Below are positions 21,625-61,310 of a stretch of 64,000 nucleotides of DNA, piece by piece. Under the pieces are notes generated by a model. The model had not been told where the DNA came from. It was given only the letters and a program-made list of their open reading frames with translations, and did not search any database. Position 1 is the stretch's first letter. Every line of letters starts with the position of its first letter. The stretch is from Rubrivirga sp. SAORIC476 (GTDB lineage: Bacteria; Bacteroidota; Rhodothermia; Rhodothermales; Rubricoccaceae): the NCBI RefSeq assembly GCF_002283555.1, contig NZ_MVOI01000011.1, forward strand, positions 62,001-126,000. Reading direction: 5' to 3'. The position numbers and the translations under genes were made by a program.

Positions 21625-22389
21625 CTACCGGAGCACGAACCGCAGCGCCAGCGCACCGATGCCCACCTGCATCGCCCCCAGCGCGATCGTCGAGGTCCGG
21701 TCGAGACTCAGCACCTCCTGACGAACCGACTCGTCGCCGAACTCGGCGAAGCCCTCCGTGCGGTACCGGTCGTCCAACTCGTCCGCACGGAACTTGTAGC
21801 GCACCGCGACGGCCCCTGCGGTCAGCGTGGCCGCGGCGATGCCCATGTCGATCAACGTCCGGCCGAGCGTGGAGCGCTCGGTGGGCAGCAGCGCCACCTC
21901 CGGCACGGCGTCCTCCAGCAGCGGCAGCACGAGCGTCACCCGCGCCTGTCCCGCCTCGACCGACTGGCGGACCGACTCGTACCCATCGAGGGATGCGACG
22001 AGCACCACGGACTCGCCGGCGTCCGCGTCGAGGGTGAGCGGCGCGAGGCCGAGCGTGTCGAGGCCCTCTGGCCCCTGACGAACGATCGTCGCGCGGATCG
22101 GGAGCGTCTCGACCCGAAGGCGGACCGGCAGGGCGATTCGCACCACCAGGGAGTCGCCGGTCGCCAGCGTCACCTGCGTCTGGGCGCGGCGCGGGTCCCA
22201 CGTCTGGCTGTCCTCCACCAGCGTCAGGTCCCGGACGCCCGGCGCGGCCTCGACCCACTCCCCCGCCCTGCCCACGCGGTCGCCGTCCACCCACACCTCG
22301 CCCGCCTCGGCCTCGACGCGGACGTGGGCCGTCTGCGCCGCAGCGGGCACGGCGAGGAGGAGAGCGAGCAGGAGCGCGAGTCTGCTCAT
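21625..22389 (-). CDS. Exported PEGA-like domain protein with membrane anchor
   Basis: 254 residues with signal peptide (MSRLALLLALLLAVPAAAQ). Residues about 22-75 (VRVEAEAGEVWVDGDRVG) resemble a PEGA domain, a small beta-sandwich found on surface proteins; a second similar unit follows at about 92-155 (ATIVRQGPEGLDTLG, LVASLDGYES). A hydrophobic segment near residues 182-197 and another near the end (ALGAMQVGIGALALRF) suggest membrane association. Its start overlaps the stop of the BamB-like gene in ATGA, so it is the last of a three-gene chained set. No enzymatic motif seen. Confidence 0.65.
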   Translation of the reverse strand: MSRLALLLALLLAVPAAAQTAHVRVEAEAGEVWVDGDRVGRAGEWVEAAPGVRDLTLVEDSQTWDPRRAQTQVTLATGDSLVVRIALPVRLRVETLPIRATIVRQGPEGLDTLGLAPLTLDADAGESVVLVASLDGYESVRQSVEAGQARVTLVLPLLEDAVPEVALLPTERSTLGRTLIDMGIAAATLTAGAVAVRYKFRADELDDRYRTEGFAEFGDESVRQEVLSLDRTSTIALGAMQVGIGALALRFVLR

Positions 22390-23474
22390 CGGGCGGTGTG
22401 GAAGGCGATCACGTGGCGGGGCTCGACGAGGACGACGAGCAGCCCGCTACCGACGGTGAGCGCGCTCTTGACGCGGCCGCGCAGCTCGGTCGACCACTCC
22501 TCGCGGCCGGTCCGGCCGTCCACGATGAGGAGCTGTCGGTCGAGCGTCCCCACGGCCACGCGGTCGCCGATCCAGACGGGCTGCGCCGTCACGTTGCCGT
22601 CGCCCTGCATCCGCCAGCGCTCGACGCCCGTCGTGGGGTCGATGCCGCGAACCGTGCCGTCGCTGTAGCCCACCGCGAGCCCGGTCGCCCCGATCGCCGC
22701 GCTGCTCACCCGGAGGGGTTCTTCGTCCTGCACCTGCCACGCCACGTCCCCGGTACCCGCGTCGAGGCGAGCGAGGTCGCCGCGCGTCGTGGAGATGTAG
22801 ACGGCGCCCACGTCGGCCGTCGGGGGGGCGTAGACCGGAGCCCCCACCTCGGCACGCCACTGCTCGGCCCCGTCGAGCGCACGCAGGCGAACGACCGTCC
22901 CCGCGTCATCGGCCACGATCACGTCGGTGCCGACGGCGAGCGGGGCGGCATGGAACTGGACGCCTGTCGGCGACGCGCGCTCCCAGCGGACGTCGCCCGT
23001 CGCGACGTCGAGCCCGGCGAGGCGCCCGTCCAGCAGGGGCACCACGAGGGTGGCGCCGACCCGGACGACGCCCGCCTGCACCTGCCCTTCCCGCCACCGC
23101 CAGATGCGCCGCCCGCGGCGCACGTCGTAGGCCTCCACCCCGCCGCCTCCGCCAACGGTCGGCACGTAGAGCACCTCGCCGTTGGGCGAGACCGCCAACT
23201 GGCCCTCGACGCTGTCGCCGAACTCGCCCGCGCCCTCAATCCGTCCCGTGTCCCGGTCGATGACCACCACGTCGCCCTTCCGGGTGCCGACCACCACGAA
23301 GCGGTCCGTGACGTGCGCGGCGGACGGGCCGAACGCGCCGTCGGCGTCGCGCTCCCAGAGCAGATCGAGCGGCAGACCGGGCGGCTCGGCGGACGCGTCC
23401 CCCAGCGCCGCGCCGAGGTTGATCGTGGAGCAGCCCGTGAACCACACGCCGAGCAGGAGGAAGAGCGCTCGCAT
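22386..23474 (-). CDS. PQQ-like beta-propeller lipoprotein (BamB-like)
   Basis: 362 residues. The ATG at 23474 gives a lipoprotein signal ending GVWFTGC with Cys15; it shares a base with the upstream stop (TGATG). The mature part is a series of PQQ-type propeller blades with the pattern GxVxxIDxxTG (VVIDRDTGRIEG, GLDVATGDVRWE, RLDAGTGDVAWQ, IDPTTGVERWR, IVDGRTGREEW). BamB, which helps BamA, is the best-known member of this shape. The neighbour here is not BamA but a large peptidase/barrel protein, so a role as its partner is a reasonable guess. It is periplasmic or surface-attached. Confidence 0.75.
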   Translation of the reverse strand: MRALFLLLGVWFTGCSTINLGAALGDASAEPPGLPLDLLWERDADGAFGPSAAHVTDRFVVVGTRKGDVVVIDRDTGRIEGAGEFGDSVEGQLAVSPNGEVLYVPTVGGGGGVEAYDVRRGRRIWRWREGQVQAGVVRVGATLVVPLLDGRLAGLDVATGDVRWERASPTGVQFHAAPLAVGTDVIVADDAGTVVRLRALDGAEQWRAEVGAPVYAPPTADVGAVYISTTRGDLARLDAGTGDVAWQVQDEEPLRVSSAAIGATGLAVGYSDGTVRGIDPTTGVERWRMQGDGNVTAQPVWIGDRVAVGTLDRQLLIVDGRTGREEWSTELRGRVKSALTVGSGLLVVLVEPRHVIAFHTAR

Positions 23475-40580: not shown

Positions 40581-41615
40581 CTAGAGTTGGTCCAAACTCG
40601 TCCATCCGCCGGACGACGGCGCCTCACCGGATGACGAAGGCGGGGTGTCGGCCGCCGCCTCATTCGAGGGGAGCATCGGGCGAGCGAAGAGCGCCGCCGG
40701 GATCGCGGTCGGGTCTGCGGCCTCCGTCGCCGCGTGCACAGGCGTCGCACCGGCCACCGGCTCGGCGGGAGCCGCCGCCTGCGAGCGGGACTCGACCGGG
40801 ACCGGCGTCGCCGCCTCGGGTGCCGACAGGGAGGGCGCCGAGGCGACCTGCCCGTCGCCCGACCCGAACACGTACCCGGAGATCTCCTCGGCTGCCGCCG
40901 TGTAGTCGACCGCCCCGCGGGTCGTGTGGCGCGAGTCGAACACCGTCCGCCCGTCGCGGCTGGCGACGGCGAGCGACGAGGAGGTCCGGATGGCGGTCGA
41001 GAGGACGGCGTCGCCGTACTTGGCCCGGAGGTACTCGGCGTAGCGCGCGTGCCGGTTGAGGCGCGCGTCGACCTGCGTGAGGAGGAAGCGCGGCGGCGCG
41101 AGACGCGGGTTGAGCTTGTCCTGCACGAGGCCCGCCGTCTGCCACGTCTGCTCGGCGCCCACCACCGGCTGGTATTCCGGCGTGACCGGGATCACCACGT
41201 GGTCGGACGCGACGAGCGCGTTCATGGTGTAGACCGACAGGGCCGCCGCCGTGTCGAGCAGGAGCAGGTCGTAGTCGTGACCGGCTCGCACCGTCTCACG
41301 GAGCCACAGCACGTCGGTCGGGCGCGTCAGGCGGCGCAGCGAGCGCGTGAGCGCCATCGAGGACCCGATCAGATCGAAGCCGCTCACGGAGTGGACGGGG
41401 AACGACCGGAGGTCCGCCTCGCCGTCCAAGAGGCCCAGCGCGGAGTGCTCCGGCGGGGGCTCCGGCGCTCCCAGCATGCGGGTCAGAAAGCCCTGCGGGT
41501 CGAGGTCGACCACGAGGACGCGCTTCCCCTGCCGCCCCAGCGCGGCGGCCAGGTGGATCGAGGTGGTGGTCTTCCCGGTCCCCCCCTTGTGATTGCAGAC
41601 TGTCAGAACAGGCAC
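40581..41615 (-). CDS. ParA-family ATPase with low-complexity tail
   Basis: 344 residues. The deviant Walker A KGGTGKTT lies near residue 10 of MPVLTVCNHKGG, Walker A' follows in VLVVDLDPQGFL and Walker B in LLLLDTAAAL. These ATPases dimerise on ATP and DNA to move plasmids, chromosomes or protein complexes. The last about 95 residues are Pro/Ala/Ser-rich and disordered-looking, an unusual extension. There is no parB or parS-like neighbour, so cargo other than the chromosome is possible. It is divergent from the Lnt-like gene. Confidence 0.85.
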   Translation of the reverse strand: MPVLTVCNHKGGTGKTTTSIHLAAALGRQGKRVLVVDLDPQGFLTRMLGAPEPPPEHSALGLLDGEADLRSFPVHSVSGFDLIGSSMALTRSLRRLTRPTDVLWLRETVRAGHDYDLLLLDTAAALSVYTMNALVASDHVVIPVTPEYQPVVGAEQTWQTAGLVQDKLNPRLAPPRFLLTQVDARLNRHARYAEYLRAKYGDAVLSTAIRTSSSLAVASRDGRTVFDSRHTTRGAVDYTAAAEEISGYVFGSGDGQVASAPSLSAPEAATPVPVESRSQAAAPAEPVAGATPVHAATEAADPTAIPAALFARPMLPSNEAAADTPPSSSGEAPSSGGWTSLDQL

Positions 41616-41784: not shown

Positions 41785-43416
41785 ATGGTCTCTAACAAGC
41801 CTCAGCACCCCCCCTTCAGCTCGTTTGGCTGGTCGCTCTCGGGGGCGCTGCTGATCGCGCTCAGCCTGCCGCCGCTCGGCGTATACCCTCTCGCCTGGGT
41901 GGGTCTGGTTCCGCTGATCGCGCGCTGGGCCCTCCGCCGCCCCTCGCTGGACTACGTCCGCGAGCTGTACGCGCTCCTGCTGACCACGAGTTGCTGCGTC
42001 GGCTTCTGGCTCCTCTTCAACCCGAGCGCGTCGACGGCCGCCCTGGGCGGGATCACGCTGTTCCTCGTGCCGATCCCCCTCGTGGTGGCCTTCGCCATCT
42101 CCGGCGTCGTGCGCGAGCGCCTGGGCCTGATCGCCGGGCTGTTCGCCCTCGCGCTCAACATCCTCGCGGCCGAGTTTGTGACGCTCGCCCTGGGCGTCTC
42201 CATCCCGTGGCTGGTGCTCGGCTACACGCAGGCCGACGCCGTGGAGTTCATTCAGATGGCCGACATCGGCGGCGTGCTGCTGCTGAGCCTCTGGGTGCTG
42301 CTCCTCAACTTCACCGCCTTCCTCGCGCTACCCCGGTCCGACAAGCCCGGCGATCGCTACGGCGAACGGGGCGTGTCGATGGCCATCTTTACGGCGCTCG
42401 TCGCGATTCCCGTCGCGTACGGCGGCATCCGGACCGCGCAGGCCGACGTGCCGGCGGCCTTCACGCGCGTCGGCATCGTGCAGCCCGGCGTCTCCCCGAT
42501 GGACTGGGACCGCCAGTCGCCCACAGTCAAGATCGACGACCTCGCGTCACAGTCCGACGACCTCCTCCAGGCCTCAGCCCGGGGCTCCTCGGCGCCGGAC
42601 TCGACGACCAACGGACGAGCCGTGGCAGAGAACCCCTCGGAGATCCATCTCCTGATCTGGCCCCAGACGTCGCTCCCGTTCATGGGCACCAACGAGGGTG
42701 AGGCGCAGCTCTACGACCGACTCCAGCGGTGGACCTCCCAGCGGGGCATCATGCTGCTGGCCGGTGCCGAGACCGCACCCAAGGGCCTGGAGCGCAGCTA
42801 CCGCCCGCCGCGTCCCGGCGAGCTGGCCAACTCGGCGGTGCTGTTCCAGCCCGGCGAGGAGATCGTCCGCTACGACCAGATGCGGTCGGTCCCGTTCGCG
42901 GATCGCAAGGCCGCCCAGGGCACCGACCGGGTGCTGTTCCACGCCGACGGTGCGGACATCGCGACGGCGGTGGGCTTCGAGTCCGTCTTCGGCAACCACA
43001 TCCGGCAGTTCACTCGCGACGGGGCGGACCTCATCGTGGTCCTCTCGCGCAACGACCTCTGGGGACGCTCGGCGGGGCTCTACCAGCACCTCCAGTTCAC
43101 GCGACTCCGCGCCATCGAGTCGCGGCGCTCCGTCGTCATCTCGACCGTCGGCGGCATCTCCGCGCTGATCAGCCCGACCGGCGAGATCGACGAGATCGCC
43201 GGGTGGCGAGACAGCGAGACGCGCTCGGTGCAGGTCCCGACCTACCGCGGCCAGACGTTCTACGTCCGCCACGGCGACTGGATCGGCCGCTGGGCGTTCG
43301 GCTTCGCGCTGCTGTTCAACATCGCAGCGATCGGCCTGAGCATCTTCGCCCCGGAGCTCGTCGGGACGAAGCGGATCCAGGCGAAGCGGATGGTGCGCCG
43401 CCCCTCGATGGTGTAG
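41785..43416 (+). CDS. Apolipoprotein N-acyltransferase (Lnt)-like protein lacking the catalytic triad
   Basis: 543 residues from the ATG at 41785, with about six membrane helices in the first 210 residues, a nitrilase-like periplasmic domain (about 228-510) and a last membrane helix, exactly the Lnt layout. Lnt moves an acyl chain to the N-terminus of lipoproteins using Glu, Lys and Cys. Here all three are replaced: WPQTSLP (Gln294 for Glu), YDQMRSVPF (Gln365 for Lys) and AVGFESVF (Gly397 for Cys). Surrounding motifs (NDLWGRS, YQHLQFTRLRAIE) are well kept, so the protein is under selection but probably not an acyltransferase. It heads the plus-strand gene block. Confidence 0.85.
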   Translation: MVSNKPQHPPFSSFGWSLSGALLIALSLPPLGVYPLAWVGLVPLIARWALRRPSLDYVRELYALLLTTSCCVGFWLLFNPSASTAALGGITLFLVPIPLVVAFAISGVVRERLGLIAGLFALALNILAAEFVTLALGVSIPWLVLGYTQADAVEFIQMADIGGVLLLSLWVLLLNFTAFLALPRSDKPGDRYGERGVSMAIFTALVAIPVAYGGIRTAQADVPAAFTRVGIVQPGVSPMDWDRQSPTVKIDDLASQSDDLLQASARGSSAPDSTTNGRAVAENPSEIHLLIWPQTSLPFMGTNEGEAQLYDRLQRWTSQRGIMLLAGAETAPKGLERSYRPPRPGELANSAVLFQPGEEIVRYDQMRSVPFADRKAAQGTDRVLFHADGADIATAVGFESVFGNHIRQFTRDGADLIVVLSRNDLWGRSAGLYQHLQFTRLRAIESRRSVVISTVGGISALISPTGEIDEIAGWRDSETRSVQVPTYRGQTFYVRHGDWIGRWAFGFALLFNIAAIGLSIFAPELVGTKRIQAKRMVRRPSMV

Positions 43417-43448: not shown

Positions 43449-44036
43449 ATGCTCGCTCTCTCCGTCCCCCTCGTGCTCGCCTCGGCATCGCCGCGCCGCC
43501 GCGACCTCCTGGCCCGCCTCGGGCTGACGTTCGAGGTCCGCCCCAGCGACGCGGACGAGACGTGGCCCGAGGCCCTCGCGCCCGGCCCCGCTGCGGCGTC
43601 GGTGGCCCTCCGCAAGGCGCACGCCACCGACGCCGCCGAGGCCCTCATCCTGGCGGCCGACACGGTCGTGGTGTACGAGGGCGAGATCCTGGGCAAGCCC
43701 GCCGACGCCGACGAGGCGACCGCGACGCTGTCCCGACTGAGCGGCCAGACCCACGAGGTGGCCACCGGACTGGCGCTTCGCCTCGGGGATCGGCAGACGA
43801 CGGCCTTCGAGACGACGCGCGTGACGTTCGCGCCCCTCTCCCCCGCCGAGATCGCCGCCTACGTCGCCACGGGGTCTCCGATGGACAAGGCGGGCTCGTA
43901 CGGGATCCAGGACGATCTGGGGGCCGTCTTCGTAGACCGCATCGAGGGCGACTACTTCAACGTGGTCGGGTTGCCGCTCCGGCGCCTCTACGCCACCCTG
44001 CGTGCCTTCGTCCCCGACCTCGTCTCGCTCTCCTGA
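43449..44036 (+). CDS. Maf family nucleotide pyrophosphatase
   Basis: 195 residues, normal Maf length, starting at the ATG at 43449. The signature LASASPRRRDLL lies near the N-terminus, followed by AADTVVVYEGEILGKP and SYGIQDDLGAVFVDRIEGDYFNVVGLP. Maf proteins hydrolyse nucleoside triphosphates, including modified ones, to monophosphates, and so keep them out of nucleic acids. It lies 32 bp after the Lnt-like gene. Confidence 0.92.
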   Translation: MLALSVPLVLASASPRRRDLLARLGLTFEVRPSDADETWPEALAPGPAAASVALRKAHATDAAEALILAADTVVVYEGEILGKPADADEATATLSRLSGQTHEVATGLALRLGDRQTTAFETTRVTFAPLSPAEIAAYVATGSPMDKAGSYGIQDDLGAVFVDRIEGDYFNVVGLPLRRLYATLRAFVPDLVSLS

Positions 44037-44039
44037 CGC

Positions 44040-44594
44040 ATGCCGCCGATCCTGCTCACGGGCCGCCTCACCGTTCTTCTCCTCGCGCTCGCCGTCGTCG
44101 GCTGCTCCGACCCGGCCCCGTCGGACCCCGCTCGGGCGGACTCCTCGGCCACGGAAGCCCCTCCCGTTACCTCCGGCCGCCAGTCGGTCGCGGACGTCGC
44201 CTCGGCCAACCCGCAGTTGCAGACGCTCCATCGCCTGCTCGTCGCCACCGGCCTGACTGAGACGCTCGCGGACACCTCTACGACGTACACGCTCTTCGCC
44301 CCCTCCGACGCCGCCTTCGCCGCGCTGGGCGAGGAGGCCCTCGCGGCCCTCGACGCCGACCCCGAGGCGGCCCGAGCCGCGCTCCTCGGACACGTCGTGG
44401 CGACGCGCATGCTCTCGTTCGACGTCTTCCCCGACCTCGCCATCGAGACCGTCGGCGGGTCGGAGTTGACGTTCGCCGAGGCGGGCGACGGACTCGCAGT
44501 CCAGTCCGGAGGTACCACGGCCCGCATCACCGACGCCGACCTGGACGCTGACAACGGCGTGGTTCACCTCATCGACACCGTCCTGATCCCATGA
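44040..44594 (+). CDS. Fasciclin-domain lipoprotein
   Basis: 184 residues. A lipoprotein signal ends ALAVVGC (Cys22). After an acidic linker a single FAS1 domain covers about residues 45-184 with the two conserved elements YTLFAPSDAAFAAL and the terminal GVVHLIDTVLIP. FAS1 domains mediate adhesion or bind ligands at the surface. It starts 3 bp after maf and its stop overlaps the SDR start (ATGA). Confidence 0.9.
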   Translation: MPPILLTGRLTVLLLALAVVGCSDPAPSDPARADSSATEAPPVTSGRQSVADVASANPQLQTLHRLLVATGLTETLADTSTTYTLFAPSDAAFAALGEEALAALDADPEAARAALLGHVVATRMLSFDVFPDLAIETVGGSELTFAEAGDGLAVQSGGTTARITDADLDADNGVVHLIDTVLIP

Positions 44595-60758: not shown

Positions 60759-61310
60759 CTAGCGCACGACCACCGCCTCCCGTACGCGCCGCTCCCGGTC
60801 CTCCGGCCCGCCCGGCCCCACCGGCACCGGGAGCTGGCCGTCCGTGATGCGCCCCTGCACCGTCAGCGCGATCAGCACGCCGCCGTCCAGCGTCACCACG
60901 ACCTGCTTGCCCACGTTCGCCCCCGTCATCTCCGCGAACCGCTCCGCCGCCGCGTCCGTCAGCACCACCGCCAGCGTCGGCCCCATATAGGCGTCCTCGA
61001 TCCGCTCCACGGCCCGCACCGCATCGGCCCCGAGGCGGAGGGACTCGGTGCCGACCGTGACCACCAGCCCCTCCCCCGCCAGCACCACGTCCGTCGGCGG
61101 GGCGACGTCGGGCGACGGGGGCGGCGCAGGGTCCGGCCCGGGGGAGGCCGCCGGAGCTGCTGACCGTGGAGAGGACGCTGCGCGAGACATGGAGTCCTCC
61201 ACGGCCGCATCAGCTGCCGCAGGCGTCTGCGGAGGCGCCGACTCGGAGAACCGACACCCGGCGACCGCGCCGAGCACCACACAGAGCAGGAAAAGGCGAG
61301 TGGCTACCAT
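60759..61310 (-). CDS. Lipoprotein with a lone SecD P1-head domain
   Basis: 183 residues. A lipoprotein signal ends LGAVAGC (Cys19); a Pro/Ala-rich linker covers about 20-75. The rest resembles the SecD/SecDF P1 head: LAVVLTDAAAERFAEMTG, then GKQVVVTLDGGVLIA and GRITDGQLPV. In SecDF the head helps pull proteins across the membrane; here no transmembrane part is present. Its start overlaps the preceding gene by 7 bp. Function unknown. Confidence 0.75.
   Translation of the reverse strand: MVATRLFLLCVVLGAVAGCRFSESAPPQTPAAADAAVEDSMSRAASSPRSAAPAASPGPDPAPPPSPDVAPPTDVVLAGEGLVVTVGTESLRLGADAVRAVERIEDAYMGPTLAVVLTDAAAERFAEMTGANVGKQVVVTLDGGVLIALTVQGRITDGQLPVPVGPGGPEDRERRVREAVVVR

Follow-up and report, generated by a model that had tools for sequence, protein, structure and literature searches.

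Why does a bacterium keep an apolipoprotein N-acyltransferase (Lnt) homologue in which every catalytic residue has been replaced? Lnt attaches the third fatty chain of bacterial lipoproteins; E. coli cannot live without it, and it is a drug target. The 64,000-nucleotide stretch of Rubrivirga sp. SAORIC476 DNA that we analyzed (the window) carries such a gene, whose frame is open over 543 codons, as had been claimed from the sequence beforehand, with no internal stops. Its product, here called pseudo-Lnt, scored 187.5 bits against the Lnt profile TIGR00546 (cut-off, 132.9) in a profile search, and PF20154 (LNT_N) followed by PF00795 (CN_hydrolase) both matched above cut-off. An AlphaFold (AF2) model based on an input alignment of 34 sequences had a mean pLDDT of 90.8, and the best 24 PDB folds matching it were all E. 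coli or P. aeruginosa Lnt (TM-score, 0.66 to 0.73 by query length). Pseudo-Lnt is thus like Lnt (TIGR00546; E. coli structures 5N6H and 6Q3A) in whole-length homology, in having membrane and nitrilase domains, and in fold, but unlike it in its triad, in two further active-site positions, and in Arm 3, as detailed below. Coordinates are collected in Table 1.

Alignment to E. coli Lnt showed that the Glu267-Lys335-Cys387 triad is absent: Gln294, Gln365, and Gly397 stand in its place. The preliminary description had named the same three replacements, and both the codons and the alignment bear this out. Misalignment was ruled out, since pairwise, profile, and multiple alignments revealed no shifted intact Glu, Lys, or Cys near the triad columns. 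The possibility of a sequencing error at these codons was also checked: the same Q/Q/G is found in two other assemblies of the genus (G002 and G003), and Q/G in a third (G001, a fragment without the first column), and sequencing error is therefore ruled out. W237, E343, Y388, and E389 are further residues essential in E. coli Lnt (PMC3850990). Pseudo-Lnt retains W241 and E399 at the W237 and E389 columns; F398 occupies the Y388 column, where many intact relatives also have Phe. The E343 column holds Asp373, and the W415 column holds Leu425. His435 is retained as well as Glu399. The motif NDLWGRS, described earlier as intact, is indeed invariant in the genus, but it is a derived form: intact relatives read D-G-W-W-G here, and Leu425 falls at the W415 column. 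In E. coli Lnt, E267Q is inactivating, as is K335A (PMC5500888); C387A is inactive, and C387S has low activity or none (PMC5500888, PMC10313180). Pseudo-Lnt should be inactive because it carries the E267Q change itself along with two more triad changes.

A defect absent from the preliminary description lies in Arm 3, which in this stretch of the E. coli enzyme helps form the portal for substrate access to the active site (PMC5500888). The segment between the Lys and Cys columns has 31 residues in pseudo-Lnt, versus 51 to 52 in nearly all intact Lnts, and full-length Arm 3 is therefore not present. Within the family, the spacing is 51 to 52 in three genomes (G005, G006, and G008), 45 in two (G004 and G007), and 31 throughout the genus of SAORIC476 (four genomes). 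Elsewhere in the order, three highly divergent Lnt-like proteins (L040, L041, and L042, from G020, G052, and G058) retain Glu, Lys, and Cys with a spacing of only 29 to 30 residues; thus, the triad can be intact even where Arm 3 is short.

Table 1. Features of the pseudo-Lnt locus and predicted lipoprotein genes of the window
Feature	Position	Strand	Basis
Predicted lipoprotein	22386-23474	-	Strict lipobox scan of window
ParA/Soj-type ATPase, divergent neighbor in ParA-lnt-maf locus	40581..41615	-	PF13614; synteny
Pseudo-Lnt, degenerate apolipoprotein N-acyltransferase orthologue, 543 aa	41785..43416	+	TIGR00546, PF20154 + PF00795, AF2
N-terminal membrane domain, residues 14-218, more constrained part	41824..42438	+	DSSP helices of model; dN/dS
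Residues 59-80, RELYALLLTTSCCVGFWLLFNP, shared without change by three congeneric species	41959..42024	+	Species comparison
Residues 162-184, almost unchanged among three congeneric species (blocks 162-175 and 177-184)	42268..42336	+	Species comparison
Periplasmic nitrilase-fold domain, residues 224-487, relaxed yet still constrained	42454..43245	+	PF00795 at 240-485; dN/dS
Gln294 (CAG) at catalytic Glu267 column	42664..42666	+	Alignment to E. coli Lnt
Gln365 (CAG) at catalytic Lys335 column	42877..42879	+	Alignment to E. coli Lnt
Truncated Arm 3, residues 373-379, Asp373 then 21-residue shortening vs intact relatives	42901..42921	+	Lys-to-Cys spacing
Gly397 (GGC) at nucleophile Cys387 column	42973..42975	+	Alignment to E. 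coli Lnt
Residues 420-448, LSRNDLWGRSAGLYQHLQFTRLRAIESRR, loop and helix beside old active site, shared without change by three congeneric species	43042..43128	+	Species comparison
C-terminal membrane helix, residues 499-521	43279..43347	+	DSSP of model
Maf-like protein, downstream neighbor in ParA-lnt-maf locus	43449..44036	+	PF02545; synteny
Fasciclin-domain protein predicted to be a lipoprotein (lipobox VVGC), second gene after pseudo-Lnt	44040-44594	+	Strict lipobox scan of window
Predicted lipoprotein	60759-61310	-	Strict lipobox scan of window

How far does the loss extend? We surveyed 114 genomes of the order, requiring E 1e-25 for an Lnt match; 58 had a match and 56 did not, whereas all nine family genomes retain lnt. 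Every one of these nine has Gly at the catalytic Cys column, and the states of the triad (in the order Glu/Lys/Cys) are Q/Q/G in G000 (the SAORIC476 genome), G002, and G003, with G001 partial; R/Q/G in G004 and G007; E/Q/G in G006; and E/K/G in G005 and G008. As read from these present-day states, catalytic decay in the family is stepwise, from EKG to EQG to RQG or QQG. In the rest of the order, only one Lnt in G027 (G/Q/G) and those of three genomes of genus g44 are degenerate; the other Lnts read are E/K/C. The g44 proteins (L150, L152, and L153, from G091, G092, and G090) have Glu replaced by Gly, Asp, or Ser, Lys by Gln, and Cys by Gly, and are more divergent around the active site; their genomes also encode the unrelated N-acyltransferase Lnb. 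For a wider sample, a search of named genomes with the single pseudo-Lnt sequence gave no matches, and one with an alignment (A2) gave 80 loci. The triad was read in 93 loci, of which the 5 degenerate ones were the same family found again; the other 88, all outside the order's degenerate lineages and mostly from other orders and phyla, had E/K/C intact without exception. One of the re-found family records is labeled Rubricoccaceae bacterium, in support of the family placement suggested initially.

Searches with PF20154, PF00795, and TIGR00546 found no second Lnt in the Rubrivirga genome, where pseudo-Lnt is the single LNT_N match, and none of the nine family genomes encodes an intact Lnt. These searches rule out a second, intact Lnt beside pseudo-Lnt. 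The suggestion that pseudo-Lnt may regulate a true Lnt therefore found no support; the N-acyltransferase that is present is Lnb. Lipoprotein binding or a new activity, also suggested beforehand, may apply. Elsewhere, G013 encodes a second, very divergent Lnt-like protein (L043, contig C392) in addition to a normal Lnt.

In an Lnt tree computed without the triad columns, the family nests beside the intact Lnts of its sister family, f10 (support, 100/99), and G027 groups with g44 away from the family (89/97). A single loss common to the family, G027, and g44 was tried and rejected (AU test against one clade, p 0.011); thus, catalysis was lost at least twice. The losses in G027 and g44, given their grouping, may be one event. 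The minimum numbers of changes on the tree are two for Cys, three for Lys, and two for Glu. In each of the independent losses, Gly replaced Cys and Gln replaced Lys. The gene order ParA-lnt-maf is common to the family, its intact sister family, and G027, placing pseudo-Lnt at the ancestral lnt locus. By this synteny and the tree, pseudo-Lnt is a vertically inherited lnt orthologue. The G/Q/G Lnt of G027 (L097, contig C540), outside the family, occupies the same locus.

The pseudo-Lnt frame is open in 9/9 family genomes, which span four genera and 37 to 74% identity. dN/dS was estimated with a simple counting approach, and the genes are GC rich, so that all ratios given here are rough (saturation and codon bias). 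Within the genus, full-length pairs gave about 0.32 to 0.42 for pseudo-Lnt, similar to or slightly higher than its neighbor Maf (0.29 to 0.33); for the pair G000-G003, pseudo-Lnt was lower than Lnb (0.32 versus 0.48). The two domains differ: the membrane domain gave 0.18 to 0.31 and the nitrilase domain 0.39 to 0.58, compared with 0.07 to 0.35 for the nitrilase domain of intact Lnts. Constraint on the catalytic domain has thus become looser, whereas the membrane domain has retained it. Judging from these ratios, pseudo-Lnt is still under purifying selection, mostly in its membrane domain. The original characterization of the protein as a conserved but catalytically dead Lnt is, as a prediction from sequence, well supported: mutants at each triad position are inactive in E. 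coli, all three positions differ in pseudo-Lnt, the portal arm is shortened, and selection is purifying.

What, then, supplies N-acylation? Lnb (PF13387 plus PF25221) is the N-acyltransferase found in Bacteroides, as described in PMC12994826; it belongs to an unrelated fold family (permuted NlpC/P60). An Lnb-type gene is present at G000:C3:394530, with PF13387 and PF25221 over cut-off (86.2 and 91.1 bits) and the motifs FGHSAIRI and DNCSTRL, whose His and Cys are predicted to be catalytic by analogy with the superfamily. It is unlinked to the pseudo-Lnt gene, which lies on contig C11. Of the 114 genomes of the order, 105 have the Lnb membrane domain, as do 76 of the 77 good ones. Neither Lnb domain gave a match in G006, whose Lnt is E/Q/G; this absence is uncertain because the assembly is 88% complete. 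The Rubrivirga genome also has LspA and, over Pfam cut-off, two Lgt homologues (G000:C3:84184-85047 and G000:C7:59442-60305), one per genome being usual. The Gram-positive Lit pathway as an alternative route to N-acylation is ruled out, since Lit was not found in this genome. Lnb is the likely supplier of N-acylation in Rubrivirga, as predicted from its gene content. Lnt is reported to have taken the place of Lnb-type genes repeatedly, in several genomic contexts (PMC12994826), so that exchangeability of Lnt and Lnb has already been proposed; what is new here is that the two coexist, and what becomes of Lnt when Lnb is retained. As for substrates, the window had been said to encode at least six lipoproteins; a strict lipobox scan reproduced only three, and a looser pattern would add some. 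The gene for the fasciclin-domain lipoprotein stays near pseudo-Lnt in several relatives.

Inactive or subsidiary Lnt homologues have precedents. BCG_2279c of M. bovis has a catalytic substitution (C387S) and supplies no N-acylation, as is predicted for pseudo-Lnt; however, BCG has an active second Lnt, BCG_2070c, and only the Cys of the triad is changed (PMC3850990), whereas pseudo-Lnt is the sole Lnt, has three triad residues changed, and shares its Cys loss with the whole family. Lnt2 of S. scabies, as described in PMC3850990, is an Lnt homologue that plays a subsidiary part and cannot stand in for the true Lnt; it differs in being a paralogue of an active Lnt1 and, according to that paper, lacks no triad residue. 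With a single LNT_N match in its genome, pseudo-Lnt has no complete second Lnt to which it could be a subsidiary paralogue. It is a family-wide pseudoenzyme, unusual among known inactive Lnt homologues, and not a new family.

We think that pseudo-Lnt is probably an lnt orthologue turned retained pseudoenzyme, in which redundancy with Lnb freed catalysis and a non-catalytic property was kept. Lnb would make the triacylated lipoproteins, and this redundancy would have removed selection on Lnt catalysis. Pseudo-Lnt would then have been kept for a non-catalytic property, most likely because it binds phospholipid, a lipoprotein, or a protein partner through its membrane domain and the conserved loop-helix at 420-448; from where constraint lies, a role as a lipid-, lipoprotein-, or partner-binding membrane protein seems most likely. 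Its task might be to hand over substrate to Lnb or the Lol exporter, or to modulate them. The change from Cys to Gly would free space in the pocket and take away a reactive thiol, and the recurrence of Gly at the nucleophile in both losses perhaps means that Gly relieves strain in the backbone at the nucleophile elbow.

Alternatively, pseudo-Lnt could be a decaying relic, functionless and eroding after takeover by Lnb, with too little time for loss. The stepwise disappearance of catalytic residues and Arm 3 and the many order genomes without any lnt fit such erosion, as does a nitrilase domain that evolves faster than in most intact Lnts; this fast evolution would also be expected of a slow relic, which is a caveat to the retained-function reading. 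A relic, however, does not readily account for a frame open across four genera, the low membrane-domain dN/dS, a 29-residue block (420-448) identical in three species, or a complete fold predicted with confidence, and we consider it unlikely. A neofunctionalized enzyme, carrying out another reaction in the nitrilase pocket with different residues, is improbable: although SRNDLWGRS, invariant and specific to the genus, and block 420-448 lie beside the old active site, and Glu399 and His435 are retained, no residue at or next to position 397 (V-G-F-E) could replace the nucleophile, the two independent losses (Lys to Gln, Cys to Gly) brought no common new polar residue, and constraint is weaker on the nitrilase domain than on the membrane half. 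We give similarly little weight to a modulator of the acylation machinery, now Lnb or perhaps Lgt, analogous to S. scabies Lnt2 acting for Lnt1. Here the genome lacks a true Lnt to regulate, and lnb and the pseudo-Lnt gene are unlinked, but Lnb is present, and there is precedent both in Lnt2, which is needed for efficient N-acylation but cannot replace Lnt1 (PMC3850990), and in BCG_2279c, whose Cys-to-Ser form does not compensate (PMC3850990). An active Lnt working by an unusual mechanism with shifted residues is very hard to credit, despite a score over the Lnt equivalog cut-off and retention of W241, F398, and E399, because the three triad columns and the E343 column are changed, Arm 3 is truncated, and E267Q by itself is enough to inactivate E. 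coli Lnt.

On the retained-pseudoenzyme reading, the family could lose the catalytic residues of Lnt yet keep it as an intact membrane protein, apparently because the unrelated Lnb can take over N-acylation. In an order with nearly universal Lnb, an entire family maintains as its only Lnt a protein that, judged by its residues, is dead; this amounts to a natural experiment. In this Gram-negative group, Lnb is probably enough on its own to N-acylate lipoproteins, and Lnt may be worth keeping for a second function that is non-catalytic. The annotation "Lnt" may name proteins unable to acylate; pseudo-Lnt itself passes the equivalog cut-off. More tentatively, and with considerable doubt, we suggest that Lnt has repeatedly been converted in Lnb-carrying lineages to a non-catalytic lipoprotein- or phospholipid-binding membrane factor serving lipoprotein maturation or export together with Lnb. 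If true, such a factor would be a new component of the lipoprotein pathway, derived from a dead acyltransferase.
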